Source of the DNA: Acidobacteriota bacterium
Lineage (GTDB): Bacteria; Acidobacteriota; Blastocatellia; Chloracidobacteriales; JADJPF01
Length of the DNA: 64,000 nt
Direction: 5' to 3'
NCBI GenBank assembly: GCA_016213785.1
Contig: JACQZQ010000056.1
Span: forward strand, 62,001 to 126,000
Both the position numbers and the translations under genes were made by a program. Shown piece by piece: positions 33,309 to 42,668 of the stretch. Below the pieces are notes generated by a model, which made no database searches, was not told where the DNA came from, and saw nothing but the letters and a program-made list of their open reading frames with translations. Each line of letters opens with the position of its first letter. The first letter of the stretch is position 1.

Positions 33309-33875
33309 ATGTCCGCTAACAAATTTTTTGAATCTTTAGATATTACATCTCGTCGTAACTTCTTGAAATTAGCCGCTATGGCTGGTGTTTCCAGTTCTGT
33401 ACTCTTTGCTCCTACTAGCTCTTTTGCCTACGGTAAAGCTACAGATACTTTAAACGTTGCTCTTAACCTTGAATTTGAAGCCATTTCTGCTTATAGCGCA
33501 GGCGCTGCTCTTCTTTCTGGTGATGTTCTTGAATTAGCCAAAAAATTCTTAGGCAACCACCAAGAACACAGAGATGCTTTGATTGCTACCATTAACAAAT
33601 TAGGTGGCAAACCAATTTCAGAGCCAAAATTTGACGCAGGCAAAACACTTGCCAAAACCAGTGTTAAAGAATTAAAAGACGCTGGCAATGTTCTTAATTT
33701 AGCTGCTGAATTAGAGCGTCAAGCTACCAAAGCTTACTTAGGCGTAATTCCACAATTAGAAAAATTAGAAATCGCCCAAGCTGCTGCTAGGATTGCTGCT
33801 GATGAAGCTACTCACACAGCTATTTTAGAAACTGCTCTTAAGACCTACAAAGGCGCTTCTTTCTTAAAAGGCTAG
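33309..33875 (+). CDS. Tat-exported ferritin-like domain protein
   Basis: A 188-residue protein with a twin-arginine signal (SRRNFLKLAAMAGVSSSV..., cleavage near SSFA) and a four-helix ferritin-like domain. Candidate diiron ligands are all present: E in NLEFEAI, E/H in NHQEHRD, E in AELERQATKA and E/H in ADEATHTA. The family is often called ferritin-like or DUF4439-like; roles include oxidative-stress or metal handling in the periplasm. Codons are less AT-rich than in neighbours and the ribosome site is strong, which suggests high expression. A strong terminator follows. Confidence 0.88.
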   Translation: MSANKFFESLDITSRRNFLKLAAMAGVSSSVLFAPTSSFAYGKATDTLNVALNLEFEAISAYSAGAALLSGDVLELAKKFLGNHQEHRDALIATINKLGGKPISEPKFDAGKTLAKTSVKELKDAGNVLNLAAELERQATKAYLGVIPQLEKLEIAQAAARIAADEATHTAILETALKTYKGASFLKG

Positions 33876-35443: not shown

Positions 35444-36352
35444 ATGAGCATATTTGATGGTAAAAACAGACCTCTTATTGAATCTAAAATTTATTTACCA
35501 AGATTAGAGACAAAAGTAAAAACTATATTTGAATATTTAGTAATTAGATTTCCTTACTTAGAAAAAAATACTTTAGCTAAGCGAGTAGAGCAGGGCAAAA
35601 TATTTTTTTCTGATAAAACACCTATATTGCTCTCAAGCGCCTATCAAGAGGGGATAACGCTTTTTTATTATAGAGAAAACGATCAAGAAGTAGAAATACC
35701 TTTTAAGGAAAATATCATTTTTGAAAATAAGGAAATAATAGTAGTAGATAAACCACACTTTATTCCTGTTACTCCATCAGGAAAATATACATATGAGAGT
35801 TTACTTTTTAGGTTAGTGAAAAAATATGAAAATAAAGATTTAACCCCAGTACATAGACTAGATAAAGACACAGCAGGGTTAGTTATTTTCTCTAAAAACC
35901 CTAAAACACGCTATCTTTATCATAATTTATTTCAAAATAGAGAGATAAGTAAAATTTATTATGCTGTTTGTAATATTAAGAACAAAATAGAAAGAACTCT
36001 ATGGACTGTAGAAAATAGGATAGTTAAGGGTGAGCCTTGGTATAAAATGAAGATAGAAGATGGTCAAATTAATTCTAGTACTTATGTTAAATTACTTTAT
36101 ATTAAAGAAAATAAAGGGCTTTTTCTTTTAGAGCCTAAAACTGGAAAAAAACATCAATTAAGGCTACATCTTTCTAGTTTAGGTTTTAATATAGTTAATG
36201 ATCCTTTATACCCAGAAGTACTTAATATAGAAGATTATGCTTTTCCAATGCAATTATTAGCAGCAAAGTTATCTTTTCAAGACCCAGTAACAAAAGAGCC
36301 TTTTAGCTTTTTCTCCCAACAAAGCTTAGATCTCCCTATTCTTAAACCCTAA
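35444..36352 (+). CDS. RluA-family pseudouridine synthase
   Basis: A 302-residue RNA-modifying enzyme. The catalytic aspartate is in PVHRLDKDTAGLVIFSKN (family HRLDxxTxG). Other landmarks are IIVVDKPHFIPVTPSG, ISKIYYAVC and the C-terminal GKKHQLRLHLSSLGFNI. The N-terminal ~80 residues are S4-like (LAKRVEQGKIFFSD). It isomerises uridines in rRNA or tRNA; the target site cannot be told. It starts at ATG 35444 with only a weak ribosome site. Confidence 0.88.
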   Translation: MSIFDGKNRPLIESKIYLPRLETKVKTIFEYLVIRFPYLEKNTLAKRVEQGKIFFSDKTPILLSSAYQEGITLFYYRENDQEVEIPFKENIIFENKEIIVVDKPHFIPVTPSGKYTYESLLFRLVKKYENKDLTPVHRLDKDTAGLVIFSKNPKTRYLYHNLFQNREISKIYYAVCNIKNKIERTLWTVENRIVKGEPWYKMKIEDGQINSSTYVKLLYIKENKGLFLLEPKTGKKHQLRLHLSSLGFNIVNDPLYPEVLNIEDYAFPMQLLAAKLSFQDPVTKEPFSFFSQQSLDLPILKP

Positions 36353-36374
36353 ATAAGATAAAATTAGACTAACT

Positions 36375-36406
36375 TATACTATGATAGTAATATACTATGA
36401 TGGTAA
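36375..36406 (+). promoter_or_regulatory. tandem palindromes, candidate upstream activator sites
   Basis: A 16-bp direct repeat (36375-36390, 36391-36406; one mismatch), each unit containing the palindrome TACTAT-G-ATAGTA or a near copy. It lies about 200 bases before the sigma-54 promoter, a typical enhancer distance. Confidence 0.5.
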
Positions 36407-36604
36407 TCAATTAAGGTGTAAATTTTTTATATATGTATATCTATGGTGTAAATAAAATTGACATCTTAAATCACCTTAAATAAATTATTATTGAGTATTA
36501 ATGTACCAGTTATAAAATACCTACTTAAATAAAACCAAACCTATCTTAATGATTATTAAAGACCTAAGAGAATTTGTATAAAATTTTTATTAAATATATG
36601 TTTG

Positions 36605-36620
36605 TGGCACCCTAATTGCT
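36605..36620 (+). promoter_or_regulatory. sigma-54 (-24/-12) promoter of CxxC operon
   Basis: TGGCACCCTAATTGCT matches TGGCAC-N5-TTGCW with the correct spacing. The start is predicted near 36631, about 105 bases before the ATG at 36736. Confidence 0.75.
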
Positions 36621-36678
36621 AAGGTTCTAAAATAGTAAAATCAACAAATAATTGAAAACTTTTCTGCAAGACTTTTTT

Positions 36679-36715
36679 CTTAATACGTTCTGTAAAGCAA
36701 ATTGGTCGTATTAAG
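36679..36715 (+). promoter_or_regulatory. leader hairpin before CxxC gene
   Basis: CTTAATACG (36679-36687) and CGTATTAAG (36707-36715) are perfect complements around a 19-base loop in the 5' leader, ending just before the AAAGGAG ribosome site (~36721). It could affect ribosome access. Confidence 0.6.
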
Positions 36716-36735
36716 CCTAAAAAAGGAGAAACATT

Positions 36736-36918
36736 ATGTTTTTTGATATTTTACATAAACATTATTGGGGACCTCCTCGACGCTCTACAAACGATGGAGC
36801 ATATTATATGACCTGTTATGAGTGCGGAAAAAAACGCAAACTCAAAGTTAATATTGATGATGAACCTGAAAAACGAATGGTTACTGCTGTACCAGAAAAA
36901 AACCCTCGTGCAGCTTAA
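36736..36918 (+). CDS. small CxxC protein, putative zinc ribbon knuckle
   Basis: A 60-residue protein with one CxxC knuckle (TCYECGKKRKLKV) preceded by HKHYWGPPRR. It resembles half a zinc ribbon, with the two histidines or a second chain possibly completing a metal site, which is inference. The C-terminus is charged and proline-rich. It is backed by AAAGGAG, a consensus sigma-54 promoter and a leader hairpin, so it is very likely expressed. The downstream two-helix membrane protein gene follows after 47 bases, suggesting an operon. Function is unknown. Confidence 0.75.
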   Translation: MFFDILHKHYWGPPRRSTNDGAYYMTCYECGKKRKLKVNIDDEPEKRMVTAVPEKNPRAA

Positions 36919-36965: not shown

Positions 36966-37238
36966 ATGTCAAACTTCCAGCTAATTTTTATCTGTTTACT
37001 AATAATCGCCCAATGTTCTATAGGCTTAGTTCTTCTCTATCATGGTATTAGTATCTTAATAGAAAATTTTGAAATTAATAGCTGGAAAGATCGCTTATTT
37101 AGAATAAGTAAGCAATTAAAATCAGCTTATTCTTCCCCTTTAGGACAAAAATTAATGTTAGTTGCTTTATTTGTTGTTCCTGGAACAATACCAATGTTAA
37201 TTGCTTTAACAATTTGGCGTAGTATTAAACGCAGTTAG
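36966..37238 (+). CDS. small two-helix membrane protein
   Basis: A 90-residue protein with two predicted membrane segments (residues ~5-32 and ~62-85) joined by a charged loop (ENFEINSWKDRLFRISKQLK), with a basic tail. I do not recognise a family. AAAGAGG lies before the ATG. It is the second gene of the sigma-54-driven CxxC unit and ends at a strong terminator, so its role is probably linked to the small CxxC protein. Confidence 0.65.
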   Translation: MSNFQLIFICLLIIAQCSIGLVLLYHGISILIENFEINSWKDRLFRISKQLKSAYSSPLGQKLMLVALFVVPGTIPMLIALTIWRSIKRS

Positions 37239-37299: not shown

Positions 37300-37324
37300 A
37301 GCGTGAAGTGAAAAACTTCACGCT
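37300..37324 (+). terminator. terminator after small membrane protein
   Basis: AGCGTGAAGT (37300-37309) pairs with ACTTCACGCT (37315-37324), followed by TTTGCTTTTTT. Confidence 0.82.
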
Positions 37325-37380: not shown

Positions 37381-38871
37381 ATGACGCAACGTGTTGGTGT
37401 AATTGGAGCAGGTTTAGGGGGGCTTTCAGTCGCTGTATGTTTAGCTGCTAAAGGTTATCAAGTAGATGTTTTTGAAAGACATAATCAAGTAGGTGGTAAA
37501 GCCTCTAGTTATAAGCGTGATGGTTTTATTTTTGATGAAGGGCCATCTATTGTGGTAATGATCTGGGTCTATCAGGATCTCTTCCAGAGAGTTGGACGTA
37601 ATTTAAGCGATTATTTAGATTTTAAGCGCTTAGACCCTGCTTTTAGAATATTTTACCAAAATAAATACCTTGATATTCCTGTAGATGAAAAAGAATTACT
37701 TAGTGTTATAGAAACTCTTTCAAAGTATGATGCAAAAGCTTTCAAGGAATTACTGTCACAGTGTGACCTTTTTGTAAAAATCTTTGCAAAAGATTTTTAT
37801 CAGAAAATGTTTTCTAGTCTCCAAGATATTATTTTTTCTCGTTTAATGCCCTCTGCCTTAATACTTCCACCTTTACGCAATTATATGGATGATATAAAGC
37901 GACGTTTTAGTAGTGAACTTGTTAGATCGCTACTAATAGGCTTTCCTATTTATGCAGGTCTTGACCCTCGTAATGCTCCATCTTCTTTATTTTTAATTCC
38001 TTGGACTATTATTCGTGAAGGTGTTTGGTATCCTAAAGGAGGAATTCACCAAATTCCTTTAGCCATAGCGAAATTAGCTAAAGAGCTAGGCGTAAAAATT
38101 CACCTAGAAAAAAATGTAAGTGCAATAGAAATAAGTAATGATTTGAAAGTAAATGGCTTAGTTATTGATGGGTTATCAGAAAAATATGACATAGTTGTTT
38201 CTAATTCAGATTATTTATATACACACCAACTCTTAAAAGGTAAAGAAGATTGGCCTAATACTATCAAATTATTGCAAAAAGAAAATGCTCAGCCTAGTGC
38301 ATCATTTCTTACTCTAGAACTTGCTCTTTCTAGCACTTTTCCTAAGCTAAAACATCATAATTTATTATTAAATGGTGATCCTACCCCTTCCTACCATGAT
38401 ATTTTTGATCTAGGAGTATTACCAAAACAAACACCTATTTATATTAATGCTCCTCTAAGAACCGATCCGCCTTTAGCACCCGCAGGAAAAGACAATTTAT
38501 TTGTAGTTATTTCTGTTCCTCCAAGAGGCGAGACTAAACCAGATCCACTTATTTATGAAGAATATGCAGCTAATTTATTACACCAAATAGAATCATTTGG
38601 ATTTTCTGGTCTAGAGAGTTCTTTACTTTTTCATAATATAAATACTCCATTAACTTTTGAGCAAAAATTTTCTGCTTTTCGAGGCTCTATCTATGGGCTT
38701 GGGCCAAAACATAATATTCTCTATGGTGCTTTTCGTCCACTTAATAAAAGCCAAGAAATTTCAGGACTTTATTTTGTTGGCGGAGGTGTTCAACCTGGTG
38801 CTGGTATGCCTATGGTTGTTCAAAGTGGAAAAATTGTTGCAGATTTAATTGCTAAAAAATCCAAACCTTAG
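37381..38871 (+). CDS. CrtI-like FAD-dependent desaturase/oxidoreductase
   Basis: A 496-residue flavoprotein of the phytoene desaturase superfamily. The FAD-binding fingerprint GVIGAGLGGLSVAVCLAAKG opens the protein, followed by FERHNQVGGKASSY and DEGPSIVVM. The C-terminal FAD motif is GLYFVGGGVQPGAGMPMV. Related enzymes desaturate carotenoids, apolar isoprenoids or diapophytoene, or isomerise retinoids. No other carotenoid genes are near, so the substrate is open. AAGGAAA precedes ATG 37381. Confidence 0.82.
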   Translation: MTQRVGVIGAGLGGLSVAVCLAAKGYQVDVFERHNQVGGKASSYKRDGFIFDEGPSIVVMIWVYQDLFQRVGRNLSDYLDFKRLDPAFRIFYQNKYLDIPVDEKELLSVIETLSKYDAKAFKELLSQCDLFVKIFAKDFYQKMFSSLQDIIFSRLMPSALILPPLRNYMDDIKRRFSSELVRSLLIGFPIYAGLDPRNAPSSLFLIPWTIIREGVWYPKGGIHQIPLAIAKLAKELGVKIHLEKNVSAIEISNDLKVNGLVIDGLSEKYDIVVSNSDYLYTHQLLKGKEDWPNTIKLLQKENAQPSASFLTLELALSSTFPKLKHHNLLLNGDPTPSYHDIFDLGVLPKQTPIYINAPLRTDPPLAPAGKDNLFVVISVPPRGETKPDPLIYEEYAANLLHQIESFGFSGLESSLLFHNINTPLTFEQKFSAFRGSIYGLGPKHNILYGAFRPLNKSQEISGLYFVGGGVQPGAGMPMVVQSGKIVADLIAKKSKP

Positions 38872-38888
38872 CTAAATAGAATAGACTT

Positions 38889-38945
38889 TATACTAAAAAA
38901 ACTACAAAATCGTAGCTTAATTTAACTAATATAACAAAATTGTAG
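38889..38945 (+). promoter_or_regulatory. promoter region with paired CTAC/GTAG palindromes upstream of activator gene
   Basis: CTACAAAATCGTAG (38902-38915) and TAACAAAATTGTAG (38932-38945) lie exactly 30 bp apart, immediately before the enhancer-binding protein ATG at 38961. TATACT at 38889-38894 could be a -10 box with transcription starting at the first site. The same paired layout occurs upstream of glnA. The sites are probably where the activator binds its own promoter. Confidence 0.65.
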
Positions 38946-38960
38946 TTTTTTATTAAAAAT

Positions 38961-40499
38961 ATGGGAAATAAACTTTCAGAAATCAGCAAACTTTCGACTT
39001 TAGTAGAAATTAGCCAAGTTTTAAGCTCAACAATAGACTTAAAAGAAGGTCTAGCCAAATTATTAGAAGCCCTAGAACGACGACAACAAATGGAGCGAGG
39101 TACAATCACTTTGCTAGACCAAAATCGCAAAGAAATTGCTATAGAAGTTGCTCATGACCTTACACCTGCACAAGTTGAACGAGGCCGTTATAAATTAGGT
39201 GAGGGGATTACAGGAACGGTTGTTGCCAGTGGTCGCCCTGTTATTATCCCAAAACTTAGCCGTGAGCCAATGTTTCTTAATCGTACAGGAGCAAGGCGTA
39301 ATCTTCATAAAAGGGAACTTTCCTTTATCTGCGTCCCAATAATTATTAATTCTCAAACCGTTGGTGCCTTAAGTATTGACTTAAAATTTCATAAGGAAAC
39401 AAATTTTAATCAAAAACTAGAATTTTTAACCATTACTGCTTCAATGATAGCAAGAAATGTTGAATTAAATAGACTTTTAGAACTAGAGAAAACTAGGCTT
39501 TTAGATGAAAATACTTACTTAAAACAGGAACTTAAAGAAAAATATAATTTTACTAATATCATAGGTTCTAGTTCTAGTATTCGGGCTGTATACCAGCTTA
39601 TTACTCAAGTAGCAACAACTAATACAACTGTATTAATTCGTGGTGAATCTGGCACAGGCAAAGAATTAGTTGCACATGCAGTACATTACTCTTCTGAACG
39701 CTCTAGCAAGCCTTTTGTTAAAGTAAATTGTGCTGCACTACCTGAAAGCCTTATAGAATCAGAACTATTTGGTTATGAAAAAGGTGCTTTTACTGGTGCT
39801 AATGCTCGCAAAAAAGGACGTTTTGAACTAGCTGAGGGAGGAACTCTATTTTTAGATGAAATAGGAGATCTTTCTTCTTCTACACAAGTAAAACTGCTTC
39901 GCGTTCTTCAAGAAAGGGAGTTTGAGCGAGTTGGTGGTGTTGAAACATTAAAAGCAAATGTTCGCATTATTACAGCTACTAATAAAGACCTAGAAAAAGC
40001 TATTGAAAAAGGGCTTTTTCGTGAAGATCTTTATTATCGCTTAAATGTCTTTACTATATACTTACCTCCTCTTAGAGAAAGACGTACTGACATTTTATTA
40101 CTAACAGATCATTTCTTAGAAAAATATGCTCGTGAGCATAATAAGCCTATTAAAAGAGTCTCAACACCAGCAATAGATATGCTAATGTGTTACCATTGGC
40201 CGGGTAATGTTAGGGAACTGGAAAATTGTATGGAACGAGCGGTGTTAATTTGCGATGGTGGTGTAATTCATGCCCATCACCTACCCCCAACTCTACAAAC
40301 TGCTGAAGCTTCTAATACTGAACCTAGATTAGACCTCATTACTACAGTAGAAAACTATGAAAAAGATCTAATTCTAGATGCCTTAAAATCATCACGCGGT
40401 AATCAAGCAAAAGCTGCTGTTTTACTAGGCTCAACAGAGCGTATTATTAACTATAAAGTAAAAAAATATCAAATTGATTATCGACGCTTTAGAAGCTAA
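38961..40499 (+). CDS. GAF-domain sigma-54 enhancer-binding protein (NifA/NtrC type)
   Basis: A 512-residue sigma-54-dependent activator. N-terminal GAF domain (~10-165; [20 protein letters not shown]), linker, AAA+ domain (~195-430) with Walker [13 protein letters not shown] (~227), the sigma-54-contact loop GAFTGA (275-280), Walker [14 protein letters not shown] and sensor [13 protein letters not shown], then a C-terminal Fis-type helix-turn-helix (~465-505; [19 protein letters not shown]). GAF-AAA-Fis is the NifA and NorR layout. It is followed by a hemerythrin-like gene after 52 bases and by glnA, which has a matching sigma-54 promoter and binding sites. Confidence 0.93.
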
Positions 40500-40551
40500 T
40501 TAAAACTACTTAAAACCACATTATGGCAAGTATCTTTAGTCTGGAGGAATT

Positions 40552-40998
40552 ATGGGTGTTGTAAATGCACATTCTATGGAAATACTTAAAGAGCAACATA
40601 AGGTTGTTACATCAATGACCACAAAAATATTAAGCTCTCTATCTAAAGAACCTTTTGTATCTGAAATAGATAATATTACTATCTCACTAAGAATTTTAGC
40701 TGGCAAAGTTCGTGAACATTTAGCTTTAGAAGATAGAGAAATCTATCCTAGGCTAATTTTATTTAGCGATAATAATATCTCCTCACTTGTTACAAAGTAT
40801 AAAAATGATGTAGGTAACTTATTGCCTCGCTTTAATTTATATATAGAAAATTGGTTAAACAAGACAAAAATTGAAAATAATTCTTTAGAATTTATTAAAG
40901 AAACAGATGAGATATTAAAAGCCCTTTTATATAGAATTGAGGCTGAAGATTGTGAGCTTTACCCTTTAATTGATAAATTAAATACCAAAAACTTATAA
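40552..40998 (+). CDS. hemerythrin-like (HHE) protein with incomplete ligand set
   Basis: A 148-residue four-helix protein of the hemerythrin HHE type: ILKEQHKVV (His 1) and VREHLALEDREIYP (His 2 and acid) match well. The third motif, usually with EH, reads KYKNDVGN, and the last, usually H-x3-E, reads LLYRIEAEDCELYP (Arg in place of His). Diiron or oxygen binding may therefore be altered. It starts at ATG 40552 after CTGGAGG and probably shares an operon with the enhancer-binding protein upstream, suggesting a sensory or modulating role. Confidence 0.75.
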   Translation: MGVVNAHSMEILKEQHKVVTSMTTKILSSLSKEPFVSEIDNITISLRILAGKVREHLALEDREIYPRLILFSDNNISSLVTKYKNDVGNLLPRFNLYIENWLNKTKIENNSLEFIKETDEILKALLYRIEAEDCELYPLIDKLNTKNL

Positions 40999-41026
40999 GC
41001 CTTAAATTTATTTCCAAGATCTTTTT

Positions 41027-41070
41027 CTACAAATTTGTAGTTTATTAGAAAATAAGCTACAAATTTGTAG
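41027..41070 (+). promoter_or_regulatory. two identical 14-bp palindromes, 30 bp apart, upstream of glnA
   Basis: CTACAAATTTGTAG occurs at 41027-41040 and again at 41057-41070, so the centres are exactly 30 bp apart (three helical turns). They lie about 135-165 bases before the predicted sigma-54 start, the usual distance for enhancer sites. Confidence 0.8.
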
Positions 41071-41172
41071 AGGTTCCATCGCATCTAAAACAAACTCCTT
41101 CTCTTTCTGGCAAACCCTAACTTATAGTGAAATAAGCTAAATAAATGAATTTTCTGGGAAATATTTTCTTTT

Positions 41173-41188
41173 TGGCACCTTTCTTGCT
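41173..41188 (+). promoter_or_regulatory. sigma-54 promoter of glnA
   Basis: TGGCACCTTTCTTGCT matches TGGCAC-N5-TTGCW exactly in spacing. The predicted start is near 41199, 66 bases before the glnA ATG. Confidence 0.82.
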
Positions 41189-41264
41189 CAGCAAGCACAA
41201 CAGAAACTAATCATGCACTATTTTAATTAATAGAAAAATTATATTTTTGAGGAGAAGTTTTTTA

Positions 41265-42668
41265 ATGGATAGTAAGACTGTTCTTGAGTACATTAAGGCA
41301 GAAAGTGTTGAATTTGTTGATCTTAGATTTACAGACCTTTTCGGTGCTTGGCACCATGTTGCAGTTCCAGTGGGAGAAATCAGTGAAGATAGTTTAGCAG
41401 AAGGATTTGGTTTTGATGCTTCTAGTTTACGTGGTTGGGCTGCAATCAATGAGTCTGATATGTTATTAATTCCAGATACATACCGTTATTGGCTAGACCC
41501 ATTTACTACACGTAAAACCTTATGTTTAGTTTGTAATGTCAATGATCCTATAACTAAAGAGGGTTATTGGTTAGACCCAAGGGCGATTGCTCAGCATGCA
41601 GAAAGCTACTTATGCTCAACAGGTATTGCTGACACAATTAATTTTGGCCCTGAAGCAGAGTTCTTTATTTTTGATAGCGCAAGTTTTCATGCTGATTCGC
41701 ACTCAGCTTCTTATACTGTCGATAGTTCAGAAGGGCCTTGGAATTCAGCAAATAGTCAAGACGGCTATCATATTCGTTATAAAGAAGGTTATGTTCCTCT
41801 ATCACCACAAGATACCCTAATAGACTTACGCGCAGATATTTGCGCTATTTTAGAAGAATGTGGAATTCCTGTTGAACGTCATCATCATGAAGTTGCTACT
41901 GCTGGACAAGGTGAAATAGATTTTCGTTACTCTACTCTTACACGTACGGCTGATAACTTAATGCTTTTTAAGCACACAGTAAAAAATGTAGCAAAACAAC
42001 ATGGTAAGACTGCTACTTTTATGCCTAAACCACTTTATGGAGATAATGGTAATGGAATGCATTGTCATCAAAGCTTATGGAAAGGCGAAAAGCCTCTTTT
42101 TGCTGGTAGTGAATATGCAGGACTCTCTAAAATAGCGCTTTATTATATAGGTGGGCTACTTAAACATGCTCCAGCTTTAGCCGCTTTTGCTGCACCAACA
42201 ACAAATAGCTATAAACGACTTGTTCCAGGTTTTGAAGCTCCTGTTAATTTAGCTTATTCTGCTCGTAATCGTTCAGCCGCAGTAAGAATTCCAATGTTTT
42301 CACAAAATCCAAAGGCTAAACGCTTAGAATTTAGACCACCTGATCCAAGTTGTAATCCTTATATTGCTTTTGCTGCAATGTTAATGGCTGGTATTGATGG
42401 AATTCAAAATAAGATAGATCCAGGTGATCCACTGGATAAGGATATATATGACTTACCAGCAGAAGAGTTAAAAAATGTTCCAAGCCTTCCAGGCTCTCTT
42501 TCTGCCTCACTTTCGGCTTTAGAAAAAGATTGTGAGTTTTTATTTAAAGGTGATGTTTTTAATGAAAGCTTTATCAATCGTTGGATTAAGTATAAACATG
42601 AAAAAGAAATTAGCCCTGTTAATATGAGACCACATCCATTAGAGTTTTCTCTCTACTATGATGTATAG
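41265..42668 (+). CDS. glnA: glutamine synthetase, type I
   Basis: A 467-residue GSI-type enzyme that joins glutamate and ammonia using ATP. Landmarks are GFGFDASSLRGW, the metal-binding PEAEFFIFD, NGNGMHCHQS, NRSAAVRIP and RLEFRPPDPSCNPYIA. The adenylylation loop IYDLP is present, so control by a GlnE-type enzyme is possible. ATG 41265 is preceded by AGGAG (41250-41254); a longer frame from TTG 41247 is unlikely. A consensus sigma-54 promoter and paired enhancer sites precede it, pointing to nitrogen-type regulation by the nearby activator. Confidence 0.95.
   Translation: MDSKTVLEYIKAESVEFVDLRFTDLFGAWHHVAVPVGEISEDSLAEGFGFDASSLRGWAAINESDMLLIPDTYRYWLDPFTTRKTLCLVCNVNDPITKEGYWLDPRAIAQHAESYLCSTGIADTINFGPEAEFFIFDSASFHADSHSASYTVDSSEGPWNSANSQDGYHIRYKEGYVPLSPQDTLIDLRADICAILEECGIPVERHHHEVATAGQGEIDFRYSTLTRTADNLMLFKHTVKNVAKQHGKTATFMPKPLYGDNGNGMHCHQSLWKGEKPLFAGSEYAGLSKIALYYIGGLLKHAPALAAFAAPTTNSYKRLVPGFEAPVNLAYSARNRSAAVRIPMFSQNPKAKRLEFRPPDPSCNPYIAFAAMLMAGIDGIQNKIDPGDPLDKDIYDLPAEELKNVPSLPGSLSASLSALEKDCEFLFKGDVFNESFINRWIKYKHEKEISPVNMRPHPLEFSLYYDV

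Follow-up and report, generated by a model that had tools for sequence, protein, structure and literature searches.

A predicted sigma-54-dependent operon encoding a lineage-restricted small CxxC protein in Blastocatellia

Downstream of a consensus sigma-54 promoter, the genome G000 carries what comparison with one relative indicates to be a real, conserved two-gene operon specifying a small CxxC protein of 60 residues and a small membrane protein of 90 residues (Table 1). We favor, with a probability of about 0.72, the reading that this bicistronic operon is sigma-54 dependent and switched on by an enhancer-binding protein acting at upstream sites. Such an activator would bind most likely to a GGTRTAA doublet, and perhaps also to the TACTATGATAGTA repeats farther upstream, and would contact RNA polymerase-sigma-54 at the promoter via DNA looping. 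The transcript, with a predicted start near 36631, would extend to the terminator at 37300 and encode a soluble zinc-knuckle-like protein with a degron-like -AA end, together with the membrane protein. Sequence comparison established the promoter, the operon layout, its conservation in one relative, and the protein family; zinc binding, the partnership of the two proteins, rapid turnover, and the inducing signal are proposed.

G000 is an AT-rich genome of 6.4 Mb, of which a 64-kb window, i.e., the whole stretch of DNA analyzed, contains the operon. The relatives named in the scan are metagenome-assembled genomes (MAGs) of Blastocatellia or Acidobacteria. The intergenic region preceding the operon (36353-36735) spans 383 bp with a GC content of 23%, and 1000 dinucleotide shuffles of this region set the chance levels given below.

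Table 1. Positions of the operon, its control elements, and neighboring features in the window
Feature	Position	Strand	Basis or remark
Pseudouridine synthase gene	35444-36352		left neighbor of operon region
Tandem 16-bp palindromic repeat (TATACTATGATAGTAA / TATACTATGATGGTAA)	36375-36406	.	possible activator site; 0.2% of shuffles
GGTGTAAAT box, distal half of candidate enhancer doublet	36415-36423	+	GGTRTAA doublet common to G013
GGTGTAAAT box, proximal half of candidate enhancer doublet	36445-36453	+	GGTRTAA doublet common to G013
Sigma-54 (-24/-12) promoter TGGCACCCTAATTGCT	36605-36620	+	shuffles, genome-wide site excess, orthologous G013 site
Leader hairpin (9-bp stem 36679-36687/36707-36715, 19-nt loop)	36679-36715	+	chance level
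Ribosome-binding site AAGGAG	36723-36728	+	sequence
60-residue HxH...CxxC protein, C terminus -RAA	36736-36918	+	ATG at 36736; homologues, motif alignment
90-residue membrane protein, second gene of operon	36966-37238	+	homologue at same place in G013
Intrinsic terminator of operon	37300-37324	+	G013 terminator at same place; 3' arm at G011 contig end
CrtI-type desaturase gene	37381-38871		right neighbor of operon region
Pair of CTACAAATTTGTAG-like sites upstream of activator gene, spaced by 30 bp	38902-38945	.	weaker copies at 38902, 38932
NifA-like sigma-54 activator (GAF, AAA+, Fis-type HTH)	38961-40499	+	2 kb downstream of operon
Pair of perfect CTACAAATTTGTAG palindromes upstream of glnA, spaced by 30 bp	41027-41070	.	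starts 41027, 41057
Sigma-54 promoter of glnA, TGGCACCTTTCTTGCT	41173-41188	+	site search, genome-wide scan
Glutamine synthetase gene (glnA)	41247-42668	+	one of two in G000; adjoins operon in G013

Promoter and operon layout

The site TGGCACCCTAATTGCT presents the GG and GC of the -24/-12 element at the right spacing and arose in none of the 1000 shuffles. Genome-wide, TGGCACN5TTGC occurs 17 times in G000 versus once for the reversed control, an excess that, along with an RpoN gene and 29 sigma-54 activator domains, makes a consensus promoter meaningful in this bacterium. The related genome G013, which contains only four such perfect sites, has an orthologous consensus sigma-54 promoter, TGGCACGATGATTGCT, before its 60-residue gene, followed in the same order by the membrane-protein gene and the terminator. 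Both the consensus promoter and the CxxC/membrane-protein operon put forward in the original prediction are supported, and the suggested search for the small protein and its promoter layout in related genomes succeeded in one of them, G013. The promoter comparison rests on this relative because an assembly gap takes out the promoter region in G012 and the contig of G011, a member of the same genus as G000, begins inside the operon's terminator, so that absence of the operon from G011 means nothing. The sigma-54 site is mostly absent before homologues in the other Blastocatellia family. By its promoter element and by the RpoN and activator genes of the genome, the operon is a predicted member of the sigma-54 (RpoN) regulon. 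Transcription might instead start at a housekeeping (sigma-70-type) promoter, leaving the sigma-54 site unused; TTGACA-N17-TAAATT at 36458-36486, a 10/12 match to the consensus, would be one such promoter. We regard this as improbable in view of the number of promoter-like sigma-70-type sites, nine versus 5.9 expected by chance, and of the retention of the sigma-54 site in G013.

Candidate activators and the glnA neighborhood

The nearby NifA-like activator might govern the operon and glnA as one nitrogen regulon, a reading that draws on the proximity of its gene, on the sigma-54 promoter likewise present before glnA, and on the gene order in G013, where the operon lies directly upstream of a glnA homologue (73% to the glnA of the window). 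However, the likely sites of this activator are the CTACAAATTTGTAG doublets before its own gene and glnA, whereas the best match before the 60-residue gene has 6/14 mismatches and is no better than in shuffled sequence. Moreover, no orthologue of the activator was found in G012 or G013, although both keep the 60-residue gene. The NifA-like activator is therefore an unlikely regulator of the operon, and a shared nitrogen regulon is quite doubtful. The simplest model for the paired sites is that the activator likely controls itself and glnA as an autoregulated pair (38900-41190). A 61% orthologue in G156 (L044) is divergent from a glnA, with TACAAAATTGTA directly before the activator gene. This activator-glnA pair, with its clear matching sites, would be useful for predicting such sites in Acidobacteriota.

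Besides the NifA-like protein, G000, G012, and G013 have about eight activators in common, none with a matching site doublet upstream that would single it out as the enhancer-binding protein sought in the original prediction.

Linkage to glnA is the sole functional hint that the neighborhood offers and points weakly to nitrogen. From the linkage to this second glutamine synthetase gene, the inducing signal would perhaps be nitrogen. A stress or signaling module, as first suggested, would be one possible role of the operon. Unlike in G000, the operon of G012 and G013 is preceded by a Ser/Thr kinase gene, and a ferritin-like gene upstream of the operon in G012 matches the window's 33309-33875 at 56%. 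The desaturase gene that follows the operon is apparently decayed in G011, where short stretches of DNA match its counterpart in the window but no long open frame is present (L231 1-260).

Upstream elements above and at chance level

GGTGTAA occurs twice in the window, 30 bp apart, and GGTATAA twice in G013, 31 bp apart. Relative to the -24 element, the G013 boxes start 154 and 123 bp upstream, and they extend into inverted repeats, TTGGTA-N8-TACCAA. A joint test of G000 versus G013, open to 7-mer doublets of any sequence provided that their spacing matched and with one mismatch tolerated across the two genomes, gave 0.005. Its recurrence ahead of the orthologous operon of a related genus makes the GGTRTAA doublet the best enhancer candidate, and we consider the GGTGTAAAT doublet a putative enhancer whose support comes through the G013 comparison. 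Local alignment of the upstream regions was not significant between G000 and G013 and borderline between G000 and G012 (0.057).

In its -24/-12 element, its pair of candidate sites separated by about three helical turns at 120-190 bp upstream, and the many activator genes of its genome, this layout resembles glnA/NtrC-type sigma-54 promoters with enhancer doublets. It differs from them in that no NtrC-, NifA-, or NorR-type site was found in the region before the 60-residue gene and in that the product is an uncharacterized small protein.

The control region had been described as heavily structured, and all elements listed at the time are present: palindromes, GGTGTAAAT boxes 30 bp apart, an inverted pair, promoter, hairpin, and ribosome site. 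That description holds for the promoter and the tandem palindrome and was overstated for the hairpin and the inverted TTAAGGTG pair. The tandem 16-mers (36375-36390 and 36391-36406) are alike at 15 of 16 positions and include the palindromes TACTATGATAGTA (36377-36389) and TACTATGATGGTA (36393-36405), an arrangement seen in 0.2% of the 1000 shuffles (0.002). In contrast, the number of short palindromes in the intergenic region was matched by 21% of shuffles, a 12-mer direct repeat like the GGTGTAAAT pair taken alone occurred in 26%, 8-bp inverted pairs such as TTAAGGTG (36411-36418) with CACCTTAA (36472-36479) in 55%, and a leader hairpin in 13.5% (RNA fold z = -0.55). In G013, only about 40 bp separate the promoter from the start codon, which leaves no room there for such a hairpin. 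The shuffles thus set the promoter and the tandem palindrome beyond chance and the other elements, by themselves, within it; part of the supposed heavy regulation is what AT-rich DNA yields by chance. It is nonetheless very improbable that the dense layout as a whole is mostly such a product, because the promoter, the tandem palindrome, the cross-genus doublet, and both proteins exceed chance even though the hairpin, the inverted TTAAGGTG pair, and the GGTGTAAAT pair alone do not.

The palindrome TACTATNATRGTA was considered as the site of a wider activator set and rejected: it occurs at only 5 places in G000, 2 of them within the tandem repeat, and none of the remaining copies lies at a sigma-54 promoter or activator gene. 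On contig C50 (L097), the sigma-54 promoter of a gene for a large secreted protein is preceded by several perfect palindromes, including ATTGGTATAACCAAT.

A small CxxC family and its membrane partner

Close homologues of the 60-residue protein are encoded in G012 (61% over 60 residues) and G013 (60% over 46 residues), whereas paralogues that are more distant occur in G000, G011, G012, G013, and five genomes of another Blastocatellia family; a weak G007 match without CxxC was left out of this count. A scan of one genome per species (84,980 species) recovered the family only in MAGs labeled Blastocatellia, Chloracidobacterium, or Acidobacteria, and 396 drawn genomes of the phylum placed it in two Blastocatellia families only, its absence elsewhere depending on scan sensitivity. 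No Pfam, NCBIfam, or solved-structure family matched the protein above the cut-off, no homologues turned up in phage records or viral contigs, and literature searches returned nothing on the module. The earlier suggestion that it had not been described agrees with the Pfam and NCBIfam libraries searched. By these searches, the protein is a member of a lineage-restricted, uncharacterized family of small CxxC proteins.

Across 16 members, H9, P14, C27, C30, and R34 are invariant and H7 is common. These residues suggest one zinc-knuckle-like site, formed by H7/H9 with C27/C30, that may bind zinc. The AlphaFold2 model, a low-confidence one (mean pLDDT of 67; residues 11-40 better), places two strands on either side of the CxxC turn; the best PDB match to this model in Foldseek is a weak one to the XPA zinc finger (E of 0.04), with NrdR far below. 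In its length of about 60 residues and its modeled CxxC knuckle between two strands, the protein is reminiscent of small prokaryotic zinc-finger/zinc-ribbon proteins, of which the one-domain zinc-finger proteins of Haloferax volcanii provide an example (PMC6562870). Unlike these, it has a single CxxC, with HxH instead of a second one, and no Pfam match above the cut-off.

After a variable linker, 10 of the 11 members of the protein's subfamily end in -AA, compared with 2 of 178 other longer ORFs at the same loci. SsrA-type C-terminal degrons are recognized by ClpXP, and the SsrA tag classically ends in LAA; the tmRNA tag of G000 is ANTQQLALAA. The -AA end is similar to such a degron but is encoded rather than added by tmRNA, and the 60-residue protein ends in RAA. 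By analogy, this degron-like end might confer rapid turnover.

The membrane protein is probably a partner of the CxxC protein. A sigma-54-driven operon for small soluble and membrane proteins recalls the phage-shock (psp) operon; unlike the psp products, neither the 60- nor the 90-residue protein has a Pfam match to PspA/B/C domains. An inducible switch in Blastocatellia, in which a short-lived zinc-knuckle protein and its dedicated membrane partner modulate either the envelope or, through the second glutamine synthetase, nitrogen metabolism, is a speculative and, on present grounds, unlikely extension of the sigma-54-dependent reading.

With this operon, the uncharacterized small proteins of Acidobacteriota gain a family of tiny CxxC proteins that is lineage restricted and has a conserved degron-like end, and the predicted sigma-54 promoter, defined gene layout, and candidate enhancer of the operon provide a testable handle on one family member. 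Another CxxC subfamily adjoins, and converges with, a two-component system comprising an NtrC-type regulator and a histidine kinase in two genomes (L087 4419-7708 and L090 5992-9237). Upstream of several homologues in the other family (L005, L007, L008, and L020), GGAATAAA was noticed by eye and is perhaps part of an ECF-type promoter.
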